A DNA stretch of 33,204 nt from contig NZ_JALVTW010000021.1 in assembly GCF_027023985.1 (NCBI RefSeq), positions 1-33,204 of the forward strand, written 5' to 3'. Below are positions 12,144-17,972 of the stretch, piece after piece. Source of the stretch: Persephonella sp. Its GTDB lineage: Bacteria; Aquificota; Aquificia; Aquificales; Hydrogenothermaceae. The position numbers and the translations under genes are program-made. The notes under the pieces were generated by a model. The model worked only from the letters and a program-made list of their open reading frames with translations, searched no databases and was not told the DNA's origin. Position 1 is the first letter of the stretch; every line of letters begins with the position of its first letter.

Positions 12144-12878
12144 TTGGCTGTAATAATCATCCCTGCAAGAAAAGGCTCAACAAGACTAAAAAATAAGCTT
12201 CTCCTTCAGGTGAAGGGGAAGCCTGTTATCCAATGGACGGCAGAGAACTGTCTAAGGGTAAAAAATGCCAGTCGTGTTATTGTGGCGACAGACAGTCAGG
12301 AAATAGCCGATATATTCAAAAACTCTGAAGTAGAAGCAATTTTAACTCTATCTGACTTTAATAGCGGAAGTGATAGGGTTGCCTATGTGGCTAAAGAACT
12401 TAATGAAGATAAAATCATAAATGTCCAAGGGGATGAGCCTCTTCTTGAGCCTTCAGATATAGAAAAAGTAATATACGCACTGGATAAAGCCCAGATTTCA
12501 ACCCTTGCCTATCCTATTCAGGATGAGGAGGACTATCTAAACCCTAATATTGTTAAAGTAGTCATTGATAAAAACGGATATGCCCTGTATTTTTCCCGTA
12601 GTCCTATCCCTTTTTATCGGGATATAGATTTTTCCCAGATGGTTAAAAATTTTGAAACTCCTGTTTTAAAGCATATTGGAGTTTACGGATATAGAAAAGA
12701 GGCGCTTATGGATTTTGCCTTTAAACTATCTCAGACAACCTATGAACAGATAGAGAAATTAGAACAGCTGAGACTTCTTGAAAATGGTTATCGTATCAAG
12801 GTGATAAAAGCTTCAAAAGATACCCTTGGAATAGACACAAAAGAAGATTTTGAGAAATTCTGCCAGATAGTTAGCTAA
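12144..12878 (+). CDS. kdsB: 3-deoxy-manno-octulosonate cytidylyltransferase (CMP-Kdo synthetase)
   Basis: A 244-residue cytoplasmic nucleotidyltransferase that activates Kdo with CTP for lipopolysaccharide inner core synthesis, so the cell has an LPS outer membrane. The start of the fold is IIIPARKGSTRLKNKLL, with NVQGDEPLL supplying the metal-binding Asp, then YFSRSPIPF and HIGVYGYRKEAL typical of KdsB. The start codon is TTG at 12144, one base after the thiG stop; GGAAG in the thiG end can serve as the ribosome site. The 3' end overlaps the convergent small membrane protein gene by four bases. Confidence 0.95.
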   Translation: MAVIIIPARKGSTRLKNKLLLQVKGKPVIQWTAENCLRVKNASRVIVATDSQEIADIFKNSEVEAILTLSDFNSGSDRVAYVAKELNEDKIINVQGDEPLLEPSDIEKVIYALDKAQISTLAYPIQDEEDYLNPNIVKVVIDKNGYALYFSRSPIPFYRDIDFSQMVKNFETPVLKHIGVYGYRKEALMDFAFKLSQTTYEQIEKLEQLRLLENGYRIKVIKASKDTLGIDTKEDFEKFCQIVS

Positions 12879-13231
12879 CTTTCTGCTTTTTTCATAAAGA
12901 AAATCTCACCTATACCACCAATAACCAGGTATATCCAAACAATTGTGTCCATATAAAGCCTGTCCTGGAAAGTAAGGATAATCAAAACAACAAGCAGTAA
13001 AAATGCATAAATCAAGAATGGAACAGCCTCAGATGGTTTATTAAATAATGTTTCATAACTATAATTTCCATTTTTCATCTCTTTTAGAATAAATACTGTA
13101 GCACCAACACCTATCCCTAGGGAAACCAGAAAAACATACTCATTTTGATACTCAGGGTAAACACTCATAATAATAGCAACCCATAATGGTAAGTCCTGAA
13201 GAAGCTCAGCTATAAATACTTTGTTGCTCAT
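12875..13231 (-). CDS. Small multi-pass membrane protein of unknown function
   Basis: A 118-residue protein with about four hydrophobic segments (around 11-25, 30-48, 68-88 and 94-112) separated by short charged loops. I do not recognise the family. Its ATG overlaps the stop of the upstream MFS transporter gene by one base (TAATG), so it belongs to the same operon and is likely made in proportion to it. Its 3' end overlaps kdsB (convergent) by four bases. An accessory role for the transporter is only a guess from context. Confidence 0.75.
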   Translation of the reverse strand: MSNKVFIAELLQDLPLWVAIIMSVYPEYQNEYVFLVSLGIGVGATVFILKEMKNGNYSYETLFNKPSEAVPFLIYAFLLLVVLIILTFQDRLYMDTIVWIYLVIGGIGEIFFMKKAES

Positions 13232-14493
13232 TATTTCAGTGGCTCTTTTGCTGTTTCTTTTAGTGTGATTCCTGCCAGAAAGGCAATTGTGGCAGCAAAT
13301 ATTAGATAAAAGGCTGGGGAATTAATATTTCCGGTAACTTTAATAAGATATGTAGCGATTAAAGGTGCTGTTCCTCCGAATATTGCAAAAGGTAGATTAT
13401 ATCCGATTGAATAACCACTGTTTCTAATCTGTGTTGGGAATATCTCAACAAGTGTTGTCGGCAGTATAGACATAAATCCTGCTACAACTATTGCGAATAA
13501 TATCTGTCCTATTAGTGCATTCTCAACACTACCGGAAGAAATAAACTTAAATAACGGATATGCCAGAATAATAGTTAGACCTGTGGAAACAAGTATTATA
13601 GGTTTTCTACCAATCTTGTCTGAAAGCCAGCCGAAAAAAGGGATTAAAACGGCAAGAATAATCATGCTAATCGTGTTAATGGTTAATGCCGTTGATTTGG
13701 GAAATTTAACAAACACAGCAAGATGATTTGCTATATAAACAAATATTGTATAAAATCCAACGGCCTGAAATGTGCTTAGTGCAAATGTTTTCATAAATTC
13801 CTTGTATGCTTTTTTAAACACATCTAAAACAGGATTTTTATCTATAAGCTCTTCATATTCCAGTTCCATAAACTTTGGGGTTTCATCTATATTTTTTCTA
13901 ACGTAATATCCTACTATTCCCAATAAAACTCCCGTAAAGAAAAGAATTCTCCAGCCCCAAGCATATAGAGCCTGTTCCGATAATATTTTTGTAACTATAG
14001 CCCCTGAAGCTGAACCAAGAAGAATACCAACAACAGCTCCCAAAATCCCAACACTTCCGAACAATCCCCTTTTATCTTGAGGTGCGTGTTCCACAATAAA
14101 AGAAACAGACGTTGTATATTCACCACCTACAGATAAACCCTGTAATAACTTTAGAAGAACTAAAAGGGTGGGCGCAAGAATTCCTATCTGTGCGTAAGTA
14201 GGGAGTAGTCCAATGGCTGTTGTAGATAAAGCCATCATTATTATTGATATGGTTAAGGCCTTTTTTCTGCCATATTTATCCCCGATATGACCAAATAAAA
14301 TTGCCCCTACCGGACGCATAACGAACCCAACGGCAAAAACACCGAAGGATTTAAGCAAAGAAACCATAGGGTCTGAAGAAGGGAAAAATAATTCACCAAT
14401 AATAACAGCAAGAAAACCGTAAACAACAAAATCATACCACTCTAAAACATTACCTATCATTCCTGCAAATAATGTTTTAGAATGCTTTTTCAT
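13231..14493 (-). CDS. MFS transporter, metabolite:H+ symporter (MHS/ProP-like) family
   Basis: A 420-residue inner-membrane carrier with about twelve spans. The opening GNVLEWYDFVVYGF and the block VMRPVGAILFGHIGDKYGRK (about 58-77) are hallmarks of the MHS group (ProP, KgtP, ShiA), which import osmolytes, dicarboxylates or aromatic acids with protons. A second sugar-porter-like DKIGRK motif follows in the C-half. Unlike ProP it has no C-terminal coiled coil. Substrate is not predictable. It starts directly after the stop of a 65-residue gene and ends one base into the next gene, so the cluster is tightly coupled. Confidence 0.92.
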   Translation of the reverse strand: MKKHSKTLFAGMIGNVLEWYDFVVYGFLAVIIGELFFPSSDPMVSLLKSFGVFAVGFVMRPVGAILFGHIGDKYGRKKALTISIIMMALSTTAIGLLPTYAQIGILAPTLLVLLKLLQGLSVGGEYTTSVSFIVEHAPQDKRGLFGSVGILGAVVGILLGSASGAIVTKILSEQALYAWGWRILFFTGVLLGIVGYYVRKNIDETPKFMELEYEELIDKNPVLDVFKKAYKEFMKTFALSTFQAVGFYTIFVYIANHLAVFVKFPKSTALTINTISMIILAVLIPFFGWLSDKIGRKPIILVSTGLTIILAYPLFKFISSGSVENALIGQILFAIVVAGFMSILPTTLVEIFPTQIRNSGYSIGYNLPFAIFGGTAPLIATYLIKVTGNINSPAFYLIFAATIAFLAGITLKETAKEPLK

Positions 14494-14691
14494 TTATGCA
14501 TCCACCCTGAAGTCTTCTTCATCAAGGAGAAGGTTTTCGAGAATAAGGTCAGGAACTAATTCATCATCTTCAAAATTTTCTAAAACTTCCAGATAAATCT
14601 CTGCAACCTGTTTGTTAGGGTATTTTTCTTTTAAAAATTTTCTAAGCTGTTTTACCTTTACTGTTTTATTATTTTTTGCCAGGTCTGACAT
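14494..14691 (-). CDS. Small acidic protein of unknown function
   Basis: A 65-residue soluble-looking protein with a basic N-terminal third (KTVKVKQLRKFLKEKYP) and a strongly acidic C-terminal half rich in Leu, Glu and Asp (residues about 34-65). The family is not recognised. Its stop is immediately followed by the transporter ATG, and its own ATG overlaps the stop of the preceding small membrane protein gene by one base. That spacing, in a four-gene chain, supports it as a real gene. Confidence 0.7.
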   Translation of the reverse strand: MSDLAKNNKTVKVKQLRKFLKEKYPNKQVAEIYLEVLENFEDDELVPDLILENLLLDEEDFRVDA

Positions 14692-14975
14692 TATCCTATT
14701 TTTCCTTTGAGGTTTTTGATCATTTTGTCACCGGCTATTTTGTATCTAATATCCCTTTTGGCCAGTTTTTCCATCTCTGATTTTATATATTTTTCTGCTT
14801 CATCAGTTGCCATTTTGTATCCGAGGACATAAGCAGTAAGGGCAAGTATAGCAAATCCTGTAAATTCTACTATCTTTGATGCTATTTCATTTGGAATAAA
14901 TAAACCACCTACGGCAAGTAAAATTCCCACTGCCAGAAAAATCTTCCAGTATTTCAGCAATACATTTGCAACCAT
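14691..14975 (-). CDS. Small two-span membrane protein of unknown function
   Basis: A 94-residue protein starting MVANVLLKYW. Two hydrophobic spans (about 6-27 and 33-53) are followed by a charged Lys/Glu-rich C-terminal helix of about 40 residues. A longer reading from 15032 adds 19 residues, but the ATG at 14975 has AAGGGAG at the right distance, so I chose it. It is the first gene of the run leading to the MHS transporter. The function is not recognised. Confidence 0.75.
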   Translation of the reverse strand: MVANVLLKYWKIFLAVGILLAVGGLFIPNEIASKIVEFTGFAILALTAYVLGYKMATDEAEKYIKSEMEKLAKRDIRYKIAGDKMIKNLKGKIG

Positions 14976-14995
14976 TTTCTCTCCCTTGAAATAAT

Positions 14996-15020
14996 TGGTA
15001 TAGAAATATATATGATACCA
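14996..15020. promoter_or_regulatory. Inverted repeat TGGTAT-N13-ATACCA upstream of the transporter operon
   Basis: Six-base perfect arms separated by 13 AT-rich bases lie about 20 bases ahead of the first gene (14975) of the four-gene transporter operon. The position suits an operator overlapping the promoter, but AT-rich DNA produces such matches by chance. Confidence 0.25.
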
Positions 15021-15069
15021 TTTGTGGAACAAAATTTAAAAGGACAGATAAACACTGATTTAAAAGGAT

Positions 15070-16353
15070 TTATATCTGTAATCTATACTCTTTTATTTTT
15101 CTCCATAAGGTTGTCCTGTGTATTCCAAGAATTTTTGCAGCGAGGGATTTGTTTCCATTTGTTGATATTAAAACTTGACGTATTTTTTCCTTTTCTGATG
15201 GTTCTTTTTTTATTGTTTTTTCCGGCAGTTTGGTATGTTTTTTTGTGATTAAATCTTCAGGCAGTTCTTTTTCTGTGATAGTTTTATTGTTACAAACTAT
15301 AACCGCCCTTTCTATCATATTCTCCAGTTCTCTAATATTCCCTGGATAGTCATACTCAAGGAGCAGTTTCATTGCTTTTGGGGAAATACCTTTTATGGTT
15401 CTTCTATATATCTCTGAATATTTATCAATAAAATAGTTTACCAGTGCAGGAATATCTTCTTTTCTTTCCCGCAGCGGTGGGATTTTAAGGGATATTACCT
15501 TTAACCTGTAATATAAATCTTCTCTGAATTCTCCTTTTTCAATTAACTCCCGTAAATCTTTGTTTGTTGCCGCAATTACCCTTATATTCGCCTTTCTTGT
15601 TTTTATATCCCCCAGCCTTTCAAATTCTTTATCCTGCAAGAGCTGCAGGAGTTTAGATTGTAGATAAATCGGCATATCCCCTATCTCATCTAAAAATAGT
15701 GTTCCACCTTCTGCAAGTTCTATTTTTCCAGGTTTATCTTTATTGGCACCTGTAAAAGCCCCTTTCATATATCCAAAAAGTTCACTTTCAAGGAGATTTT
15801 CAGGGATTGCAGCGCAATTTATTTTTATAAATGGTTTATCCCTTCTTGAAGAAAGGGTATGTATATACTTTGCAAGAATACTTTTGCCTGTTCCTGTTTC
15901 ACCTTCTATAAGGATGGTGGCAGTTGTATCTGCCACCGTTTTTGCCATTTCTATAACAGACACAAACTCTGGATTTTTTGAAATGATTCTTCCTTTAACT
16001 TCCTGATTTATCATACATTCTGGAAGCATATAAAAAGATATAACCTTGCCTTCCCCTTCTTTCAGAGATGTTATCATCAGGGACACTTTTATTCTGCCGT
16101 ATGCAGGGGTTTCTATGTGGATATCTTCCCTTTCACCTTCAGGTGGTAAATTTTTCAATGAAAGCCCAATTAGATTTTCAATATTAAAACCTTTTATATC
16201 GGATATCTCTCTGCATAAGATTTGTCTTGCAACTTCATTATAATGGATAATCTCTCCATTACTGTTGATTACAACTATCGCATCTACAATTGAGTCCAGA
16301 ATTACTTCTGTAAACTCTTTTTGTTTCTTTAACTCTTTTATATAATCTGTCAT
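15070..16353 (-). CDS. Sigma-54 dependent transcriptional activator (PAS - AAA+ - Fis HTH)
   Basis: A 427-residue reading from the first canonical start. A PAS domain at about 13-112 (DAIVVINSNGEIIHYNEVA) is followed by a sigma-54-activating AAA+ domain. The AAA+ domain has Walker A GETGTGKS at 151-158, the sigma-54-contacting GAFTGA loop at 198-203, Walker B in TLFLDEIGD (about 218-226) and a sensor/arginine-finger region FREDLYYRLKV. A Fis-type helix-turn-helix closes the C-terminus (SLAAKILGIHRTTLWRKIKEY). It lacks a response-regulator receiver, so it should sense a ligand or redox state directly. The reading frame stays open about 100 codons upstream through another PAS-like segment (see 16354-16652). 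A sigma-54 promoter and enhancer-like repeats lie at the head of the same gene run. Confidence 0.95.
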   Translation of the reverse strand: MTDYIKELKKQKEFTEVILDSIVDAIVVINSNGEIIHYNEVARQILCREISDIKGFNIENLIGLSLKNLPPEGEREDIHIETPAYGRIKVSLMITSLKEGEGKVISFYMLPECMINQEVKGRIISKNPEFVSVIEMAKTVADTTATILIEGETGTGKSILAKYIHTLSSRRDKPFIKINCAAIPENLLESELFGYMKGAFTGANKDKPGKIELAEGGTLFLDEIGDMPIYLQSKLLQLLQDKEFERLGDIKTRKANIRVIAATNKDLRELIEKGEFREDLYYRLKVISLKIPPLRERKEDIPALVNYFIDKYSEIYRRTIKGISPKAMKLLLEYDYPGNIRELENMIERAVIVCNNKTITEKELPEDLITKKHTKLPEKTIKKEPSEKEKIRQVLISTNGNKSLAAKILGIHRTTLWRKIKEYRLQI

Positions 16354-16652
16354 TTTTGAAGAGTCTTTGAACTCTTCAAGAAGACCTATAAATTCACCGT
16401 TATCAAAAACAGGGGTGATACTGTGGCATACAGTTTTTTCATTGCAGCAGGAAAGCTTAACATCAAAGGCATCAACTTTCTTTAGGTCTTTTTCAAGTGG
16501 GCAGCTTTTCTCACAGATTGAAAATAGCCCGTAACAATCCTCCCCTACTTTACGGTTGACAACTTTCTGGGCAACTTTATTGATATATCCAATTTTTCTT
16601 TCTTTGGTAACGAAGATAATCCCCTCCGTTACACTATCAAGAGTAAGTCCAT
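16354..16652 (-). other. In-frame Cys-rich PAS extension of the sigma-54 activator, without a canonical start
   Basis: The codons just upstream of the ATG at 16353 remain open and encode a clear PAS-like sequence: LDSVTEGIIFVTKERKIGYI, then segments with CYGLFSICEKSCPLEK and SCCNEKTVC. The C...C...CPL pattern is common at the N-termini of such regulators. The frame stops at 16657-16659 and contains no ATG, GTG or TTG. An ATG at 16652 lies one frame off and reaches a stop after seven codons. The simplest explanation is a one-base indel within the first codons, by mutation or sequencing error, so the true gene probably starts at 16652. Confidence 0.7.
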
Positions 16653-16715
16653 GACTTTAACCAAAATATATTTTTTTATCCTTTTATAACTAAATATAAT
16701 AACTTTTAAATGAAT

Positions 16716-17096
16716 TTACCACTCTGTTGGGATTTTACCCATCATTCTCAAACTTTCCTCAAATGGCCCCATATATTTCATTGCAGTTATCATTGAACCT
16801 TTAAATTTTAGTTTTTTTGTAAGCATCGCTGCTTTAGGACCCATCTTTCCTGTTGCAAGAGTTTTCCAGTCTTCAGGTGTTGCCCACATCTCAAAATCAT
16901 ATTTCATGTCCGGTGCAAGTCCTGATTCAACCACTTCCCCTTTTTCTACCTTTACATATACAGGAGGCTGGTCTGAACCTTCTATGTAGTATTTAATTGT
17001 TGCATTAAATTTTTTGAGACCATCTTTAAGCTTTTCATTCTTGTTCCATTCTTCAGCATAGGCCTTTATCCATTCTTCTGATAAAAACTTTGGCAT
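16716..17096 (-). CDS. SCP2 sterol-binding-like domain protein
   Basis: A 126-residue soluble protein made almost entirely of an SCP2/sterol-carrier-like fold. It has a helical N-terminus, a beta-rich middle (ATIKYYIEGSDQPPVYVKVEK...), the PEDW segment and the KLKFKGSMITAMKYMGPFEE C-terminal helix typical of SCP2-domain proteins. Bacterial members are thought to bind hydrophobic ligands, but the ligand here is unknown. AAAGGAG precedes the ATG. It lies 43 bases after the DUF2173 gene, with a GC hairpin in the gap, and upstream of the sigma-54 activator, so it likely belongs to the same regulated unit. Confidence 0.82.
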   Translation of the reverse strand: MPKFLSEEWIKAYAEEWNKNEKLKDGLKKFNATIKYYIEGSDQPPVYVKVEKGEVVESGLAPDMKYDFEMWATPEDWKTLATGKMGPKAAMLTKKLKFKGSMITAMKYMGPFEESLRMMGKIPTEW

Positions 17097-17115
17097 CTTA
17101 AAACTCCTTTAAAGA

Positions 17116-17130
17116 GGGGCTAAAAGCCCC
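17116..17130 (-). terminator. Intercistronic GC hairpin (attenuator or partial terminator)
   Basis: GGGGC-TAAAA-GCCCC forms a 5-bp all-GC stem with a 5-base loop between the DUF2173 gene and the SCP2 gene. On the minus strand it is followed by TCTTT and then by the SCP2 ribosome site. It resembles the terminator at 19869-19885 but has a weaker T tract, so partial termination or mRNA 3'-end protection is likely. Confidence 0.5.
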
Positions 17131-17139
17131 ATAGATTTT

Positions 17140-17466
17140 TTATTGGGAAAGTAATGCTTGGAATACTTCGTTAAATGAAACTTCATCATTTTTTACGAAA
17201 ACACCTACATTACCTGCAACACATACAGAATATTTTGGTCCTGCAAGTGCCCATCCTTTAAGTGGTGTCCATTCCTGCCCTGAAAATGCTGTGTATCCAT
17301 CTGTTTGCATTTTTGCCATTGCGTTATTAGCAGCACACATTTCAGCTGCCATTGCTGCTTCTTCCTCGGAAATATCTCCTTCAAATGCTGCAAGTGTCCC
17401 ATCATCATTAAACTGTCCTGCAGCAAAAACACCTTTTATTCCTAATAATTTTTTTAAGTCTGCCAT
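17140..17466 (-). CDS. DUF2173 (Roadblock/LC7-like) family protein, copy 2
   Basis: A 108-residue small soluble protein with the style of DUF2173: LLGIKGVFAAGQFNDDG...GDISEEEAAMAAEMCAANNAM, EWTPLKGWALAGPKYSVCVAGNVGVFV. It aligns along its whole length with the gene just upstream (17489-17815) with a one-residue offset, about 47 identical positions by hand count, so the two arose by tandem duplication. The conserved AGNVGVFV block is shared. The family is predicted to have a Roadblock/profilin-like fold and has no established function that I know of. The ATG has GGAGG upstream; the gap to the first copy is 22 bases. Confidence 0.8.
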   Translation of the reverse strand: MADLKKLLGIKGVFAAGQFNDDGTLAAFEGDISEEEAAMAAEMCAANNAMAKMQTDGYTAFSGQEWTPLKGWALAGPKYSVCVAGNVGVFVKNDEVSFNEVFQALLSQ

Positions 17467-17488
17467 GATAATTACCTCCTTTTTTGAT

Positions 17489-17815
17489 TTATGGCATTAT
17501 TGTTTCCCAGATTTTGTCAAAATTTGCCTTGTCTAACTCCACAAAAACTCCAACATTGCCTGCTATACATGCTGCATATTTCCCTGCTGCAACTGCGAAT
17601 CCCTGAACAGGGAAAAATCCTTCTTTTCCTGTATACTCTGTCCATCCTTTTGCCTGCATGTTTGCTACAGCTTTGTTGGCTGATGCCATCAGTGCTGCAA
17701 TTTCAGCGGCTTTTTCTGAAATATCTCCGGCATATGCAACAAGATTTCCATGATCATCATAAATACCTGCTGCAACAGCTCCTGGTAATTGCATAAGTTC
17801 TCTTAGTGTTGCCAT
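17489..17815 (-). CDS. DUF2173 (Roadblock/LC7-like) family protein, copy 1
   Basis: A 108-residue small protein, paralogue of the next gene, opening MATLRELMQLPGAVAAGIYD and containing GDISEKAAEIAALMASANKA and CIAGNVGVFVELDKANF. It is the promoter-proximal gene of the run that includes its paralogue, the SCP2 protein and the sigma-54 activator. GGGAGG at 17824-17829 precedes the ATG. A strong sigma-54 promoter lies 40 bases upstream, so expression is expected to be switch-like and dependent on an enhancer-binding protein. The biochemical role is unknown; a scaffold or ligand-sensing role is only an analogy to Roadblock folds. Confidence 0.8.
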   Translation of the reverse strand: MATLRELMQLPGAVAAGIYDDHGNLVAYAGDISEKAAEIAALMASANKAVANMQAKGWTEYTGKEGFFPVQGFAVAAGKYAACIAGNVGVFVELDKANFDKIWETIMP

Positions 17816-17854
17816 AATTAAAACCTCCCAGTTTGATGTTGTATTTTATTAAGA

Positions 17855-17869
17855 GCAACAACTGTGCCA
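17855..17869 (-). promoter_or_regulatory. Sigma-54 (RpoN) promoter for the DUF2173 operon
   Basis: On the minus strand the sequence reads TGGCAC-AGTTG-TTGC followed by T, an exact match to the -24/-12 consensus TGGCAC-N5-TTGC with correct GG-to-GC spacing. The predicted start is near 17843, leaving a leader of about 28 bases that contains the GGGAGG site. Confidence 0.88.
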
Positions 17870-17923
17870 AAGAGAAATTCTTATAAAAATCAATAACTTA
17901 TAAAAATTAGATAGAATTTTGCA

Positions 17924-17972
17924 TGTTGCACATCGATTAAATGTTGCAACAGTGTTGCAACATTCCTGCAAC
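17924..17972. promoter_or_regulatory. Enhancer-like (UAS) cluster with two TGTTGCAACA palindromes
   Basis: Two identical 10-bp perfect palindromes TGTTGCAACA lie at 17942-17951 and 17953-17962, centres 11 bp apart (one helical turn). They are flanked by half sites TGTTGCA at 17924-17930 and TGCAAC at 17967-17972. The palindromes centre about 104 and 115 bp upstream of the predicted sigma-54 start, a usual distance for an activator-bound enhancer. The Fis-type HTH activator at 15070-16652 is the obvious candidate binder (inference). Confidence 0.75.

Follow-up and report, generated by a model that had tools for sequence, protein, structure and literature searches.

FisR, described in Cupriavidus and Acinetobacter, is a sigma-54 activator that responds to sulfide and persulfide, and in the Cupriavidus protein cysteines have a part in expression that depends on sulfide (PMC7315123). 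In two Sulfolobaceae, Acidianus brierleyi and S. ohwakuensis, a DUF2173 protein is upregulated 99-fold and 32-fold on S0; this protein is described as multi-transmembrane (PMC11323534). The locus studied here brings together components related to these systems: a sigma-54 activator (EBP), two DUF2173 proteins (D1 and D2) and a stand-alone SCP2-fold protein (SCP2). Our literature search, which covered few subscription papers, found no published work on this cassette or naming COG4831; the parts are known, and their arrangement is undescribed in the literature searched.

The window, i.e., the whole stretch of DNA analysed, is one contig (C21) of 33,204 bases from Persephonella (Hydrogenothermaceae). 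Comparison with relatives shows the four genes D1-D2-SCP2-EBP oriented in one direction behind a predicted sigma-54 promoter and a predicted, cassette-specific activator site. The preliminary description of this DNA located the three ORFs (two of 108 residues, and SCP2) correctly, and all of them lie on the minus strand; its span did not extend to EBP, the fourth gene, or to the activator site at 17940-17964. The features are as follows:

17489..17815, minus strand: D1, DUF2173/roadblock-like protein of 108 aa, first gene of the operon (ORF; PF09941 at E 5e-34; weak Robl_LC7 match; D1 clade support 100/99)
17140..17466, minus strand: D2, DUF2173/roadblock-like protein of 108 aa (ORF; PF09941 at E 3e-40; AF2 model with pLDDT 92, roadblock fold)
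16716..17096, minus strand: SCP2, stand-alone SCP2-fold carrier of 126 aa (PF02036 at E 6e-18; AF2 model with pLDDT 91.5; TM 0.84 to Thermus SCP2 2cx7)
15070..~16652, minus strand: EBP, sigma-54 activator with PAS1 (four invariant Cys), PAS2, AAA+ and Fis-type HTH domains (Pfam, translation and alignment with relatives)
17854..17869, minus strand: predicted sigma-54 -24/-12 promoter TGGCACAGTTGTTGCT, 38 nt before the D1 ATG (motif match and conservation)
17940..17964, no strand assigned: candidate activator-site palindrome AATGTTGCAACA-g-TGTTGCAACATT with 12-bp arms and a 1-bp spacer, ~70 bp upstream of the -24 box (cassette-specific in the phylum)
17923..17930, no strand assigned: extra half site ATGTTGCA, inverted relative to TGCAACAT at 17956-17963

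Downstream of EBP, at 12875-15032 on the minus strand, the window holds two small uncharacterised ORFs and a metabolite/H+ symporter-like MFS gene; a small ORF in the same stretch has a sub-threshold match to DUF4010. No Rfam element was found in the window between 13000 and 21500.

DUF2173 was detected in 56 of the 136 Aquificota genomes (in 53 of them above the cut-off), mostly as a tandem pair. According to tblastn across the phylum, D1 and D2 are adjacent in all 41 loci, SCP2 follows them in 38, and the complete D1-D2-SCP2-EBP order is collinear in 36, the gaps being typically ~30, ~60 and ~330 nt (the last one measured to the EBP match). The genes had been claimed to form one regulated module, and a check of co-conservation was set beforehand as its refutation test; these 36 of 41 collinear loci and the co-encoded PAS-type sigma-54 activator leave the module standing, as a block of genes passed on together in thermophilic bacteria that live on sulfur and hydrogen. 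When all ORFs within ~10 kb were clustered, no further gene family was conserved in more than seven loci, and the flanks otherwise differ. D2 is the most conserved member (71-100% identity among canonical cassettes), and dN/dS between the window and its relatives lies from ~0 to 0.09 for all four genes. RpoN was found in most cassette-bearing genomes. In two genomes, a diverged second triple, D1'-D2'-SCP2', stands in front of a normal cassette; thus, D1 and D2 duplicate together with SCP2. Several further copies are split or decayed, which, together with the EBP defects described below, indicates that some lineages can do without the cassette, as expected of a conditional response.

The cassette is also present in a second phylum (that of genome G136), where DUF2173 was found in 3 of 347 genomes, each time as D1-D2-SCP2 without EBP, although the G136 contig may be a binning error. 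At one locus of this phylum (L135), the trio is followed by two more genes, one of them with a DUF302 match.

A single sigma-54 promoter had been proposed, and TGGCACAGTTGTTGCT is indeed the sole zero-mismatch match within the window. Among the 43 copies of D1, 31 are preceded by a promoter with at most one mismatch from the consensus, usually 35-53 nt before the ATG, while shuffled upstream regions reach this level in 0.3%. The palindrome GTTGCAACANTGTTGCAAC, searched with up to two mismatches, occurs in 32 of the 136 genomes, against one genome for the reversed-pattern control. It precedes the cassette in 29 genomes, including both cassettes of G028. Two other occurrences are deletion relics: in G011 (L139:1060-1260) what follows the palindrome is the sigma-54 promoter and a D1 gene cut off after its first ten codons; in G026 (L138:1790-1900) it is an EBP remnant. 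The remaining occurrence, in G068, is at the end of a contig. At this threshold, the 136 genomes showed no further type of target for the palindrome. Since the site is restricted to the cassette, its two relics and one contig end, the regulon of the activator appears to be its own operon, to which the predicted EBP would be dedicated.

Profile matches to PF00158 (E 2e-72) and PF02954 (E 4e-14) place EBP among the sigma-54 activators. Its PAS1 domain carries four cysteines present in all 34 aligned EBPs, mostly spaced as C-x6-C-x2/3-CP-x(23-29)-C, and a PAS2 cysteine is present in 33 of 34. The four invariant cysteines suggest sensing by thiol/persulfide chemistry or by a metal cluster. Of the ligand- or redox-sensing activator that had been postulated, the PAS-type sigma-54 activator is thus found in the cassette, and its sensing of a redox or ligand cue is plausible. 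The window copy of EBP differs from those of L053, L054 and L057 by a 4-nt deletion directly after the ATG (16560-16725, minus strand). Its ATG at 16652-16650 is out of frame and the first in-frame ATG lies at 16353, hence the gene has no intact start. The deletion represents either real decay or an assembly error, and with a frameshifted EBP start the window copy may be uninducible. The EBP gene of G001 (L033:10773-12400) has an in-frame stop within the AAA+ domain.

The same cysteines would also fit a response to O2, NO or redox stress, in which O2 or NO would react with a metal or Fe-S centre of the PAS domain, and the cassette would serve to protect or repair quinones or membrane lipids. 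A second cassette of G028 (L067:473-4156) is in favour of this explanation: it is arranged as D1'-D2'-multihaem cytochrome c-hemerythrin-EBP', has no SCP2 and stands under a perfect palindrome. The Aquificota families f3-f5, in which both DUF2173 and SoxZ are absent, agree with it as well. However, the hemerythrin variant is limited to one genome, the metal centre is putative, and the sequence search with PAS1 gave no convincing solved relative. We consider the O2/NO response possible, although rather doubtful.

D1 and D2 belong to DUF2173 (PF09941), scoring 117 and 137 bits where the cut-off is 26.1, the matches covering positions 2-104 of 106. They fall outside Robl_LC7 (PF03259) in the narrow sense: D1 reaches 19.9 bits against 23 and D2 has no match, while 11 of 34 members match this profile, only at E <= 0.01. 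Nevertheless, the AF2 model of D2 (pLDDT 92) has the alpha-beta-beta-alpha-beta-beta-beta-alpha order of the roadblock/LC7 fold, and its best Foldseek matches in the PDB are Ragulator/MP1-p14, a Streptomyces roadblock protein and MglB (E ~1e-5, TM 0.6-0.66); a sequence search of the PDB with D1 and D2 found nothing. Both folds named in the preliminary description, roadblock-like and SCP2, are therefore seen in the AF2 models. Its estimate of about 47 identities between D1 and D2 is close to our count of 48 of 107 positions (45%). The AGNVGVFV motif, given there as invariant, is identical in both window copies, but family-wide only G85, G88 and F90 are invariant. A cysteine corresponding to C82 of D2 (alignment A2 position) is kept by all 34 aligned D1 and D2 proteins, but the diverged duplicates have lost it.

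In the phylogeny, the D1s and the D2s make up two clades with 100/99 support, each including the copies from the second phylum, which means that the D1-D2 pair either is older than the split of the two phyla or was transferred as a pair. Some Persephonella-type genomes devoid of the cassette encode a fused DUF2173 protein of 212-213 aa, whose C-terminal half is DUF2173 by Pfam and whose N-terminal half aligns to the family profile in hhalign (E 1e-5, probability 81%):

L141:6433-7074, minus strand: fused two-domain DUF2173-like protein
L142:5733-6371, plus strand: fused two-domain DUF2173-like protein

The existence of this two-domain pair supports a D1-D2 dimer. Together with the co-duplication and the conserved pairing of the genes, the fusion suggests that D1 and D2 likely form a heterodimer. 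The fused-protein genes adjoin those for a glutamate-synthase-like flavoprotein and a biotin-dependent carboxylase-type subunit. On plasmids, the search for DUF2173 returned only a 28%-identical Methylocystis protein with uninformative neighbours. A DUF2173-like ORF on prophage contigs (37% over 70 aa) was rejected, having no HMM match.

The roadblock fold and the Foldseek matches to MglB could mean that D1 and D2 control a small Ras-like GTPase as MglB does MglA. However, the cassette has no GTPase, and no MglA-type GTPase gene is adjacent to it. Genes for canonical Robl_LC7 proteins lying no more than ~1 kb from a PF00025 GTPase gene are located elsewhere, e.g., in G000 (contig C18) and G001, and the cassette genomes G030 and G033 have no canonical Robl_LC7 at all. 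Control of a GTPase by D1 and D2 is therefore highly unlikely.

SCP2 scores 65 bits against 21.3 for PF02036, and its model (pLDDT 91.5) is closest in fold to the Thermus protein 2cx7 (TM 0.84). In two genera, four genomes (G074-G077, loci L143-L146) carry an orthologous SCP2 gene unaccompanied by D1, D2 or EBP, which means that SCP2 does not always need D1 and D2. Most genomes of both cassette-holding families encode, elsewhere, a separate SCP2-domain protein of ~168 aa, and a housekeeping role of the cassette SCP2 is therefore improbable. At L148:8083-8565 (plus strand), an SCP2-domain protein has an apparent signal peptide and is possibly periplasmic.

Perhaps the cassette is a quinone- or lipid-carrier module resembling the SCP2 proteins UbiJ and UbiT, in which D1-D2 would scaffold an enzyme whose gene lies at another locus. 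The ability of SCP2 to stand alone and the match of its model to UbiJ-SCP2 (TM ~0.6) are consistent with this. Yet UbiJ is not the best match in fold and shares ~9-11% identity, the separate ~168-aa protein speaks against a housekeeping role of the cassette SCP2, and the patchy distribution and relics of the cassette show its dispensability. We regard such a module as improbable.

The proposal that the cassette serves sulfur or lipid metabolism is not established. In phylogenetic profiling across Aquificota, the cassette does not track SoxZ, SOR or CCG. SoxZ is common in genomes without the cassette and missing from the near-complete cassette genomes G030 and G104. SOR was above the cut-off in one genome only, with no association with the cassette, and CCG (HdrB-like) is near universal and likewise shows no clean association. 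The search for SCP2 on plasmids revealed Rhodococcus genes, of which one lies in a region for aromatic degradation, and a homologue on a plasmid of the cyanobacterium Pseudanabaena (L095:2618-7349). The latter is an indirect pointer to sulfur: it stands in a same-strand row with genes for an FAD/NAD(P) oxidoreductase, which we read as SQR-like, ArsR regulators, DUF3122, a rhodanese and RND efflux. The DUF302 gene at L135 is another such pointer, as DUF302 occurs in sox clusters (PMC5037610). Together with the S0 induction in Sulfolobaceae, the Pseudanabaena gene row and this DUF302 gene support a sulfur connection with moderate confidence. We infer a substrate or stress response, and the cassette appears to encode a response under sensor control, most likely one linked to sulfur or redox chemistry.

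The reading we prefer, to which we give an even chance, is that of a self-contained inducible response cassette with a D1-D2 heterodimer and an SCP2 carrier, linked to sulfur handling. In such a system, EBP would likely bind the palindrome and switch on only its own operon, creating a positive loop; the trigger is likely a signal altering the four-cysteine PAS domain via persulfidation/disulfide chemistry or a metal cluster. D1 and D2 would likely pair as an obligate heterodimer of roadblock proteins, much like the p14-MP1 scaffold but working with no GTPase. It is plausible that this heterodimer, together with SCP2 holding a hydrophobic ligand, would act as a cytoplasmic binding or hand-over unit. 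With moderate confidence, the signal and the cargo may be linked to the handling of zero-valent or reactive sulfur in chemolithotrophic sulfur oxidisers. We would go further only with much reserve and suppose, as an attractive but unlikely case, that the GTPase-free roadblock heterodimer and SCP2 represent a dedicated cytoplasmic carrier of S8 or long polysulfides in sulfur-oxidising thermophiles, and that their induction runs through a four-cysteine PAS activator, reactive to persulfide, which has no target but the cassette.

The presented analysis turns DUF2173 and the bacterial stand-alone SCP2, both of unknown role, into a defined and testable unit with its own switch. As the activator site is apparently operon-specific, knowing the inducer would reveal the process at once. 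With zero-valent sulfur as its cargo, the cassette would bear on the cytoplasmic handling of insoluble sulfur; if it responds to O2 or NO, it would be a new stress module in Aquificota.

Among the known systems, FisR is the nearest sigma-54 activator answering to sulfide, persulfide sensing by the cassette EBP being putative. Both are sigma-54 EBPs whose sensory domain is N-terminal and whose DNA-binding domain is C-terminal, and both have a sigma-54 operon next to them. However, FisR is divergently transcribed and controls SQR/PDO, whereas the gene for the cassette EBP closes its own operon, and the protein has a four-Cys PAS domain and, as predicted targets, roadblock and SCP2 proteins. The Sulfolobaceae protein induced on S0 belongs to the same Pfam family, DUF2173, but it is reported to be a membrane protein with several transmembrane segments (PMC11323534), while D1 and D2 are single 108-aa domains with none in the model. 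With the p14-MP1 heterodimers of Ragulator and with MglB, D1 and D2 share the fold, and they likewise are two paralogous subunits; they differ in having no GTPase partner in the cassette, in scoring below the Robl_LC7 gathering cut-off and in being partnered with an SCP2 protein. Finally, Thermus SCP2 (2cx7/1wfr), archaeal AF1534 (3cnu) and UbiJ/UbiT have the same stand-alone SCP2 fold, but the cassette SCP2, with ~16% identity to 2cx7, is distinguished from them by its operon partners and its regulation.
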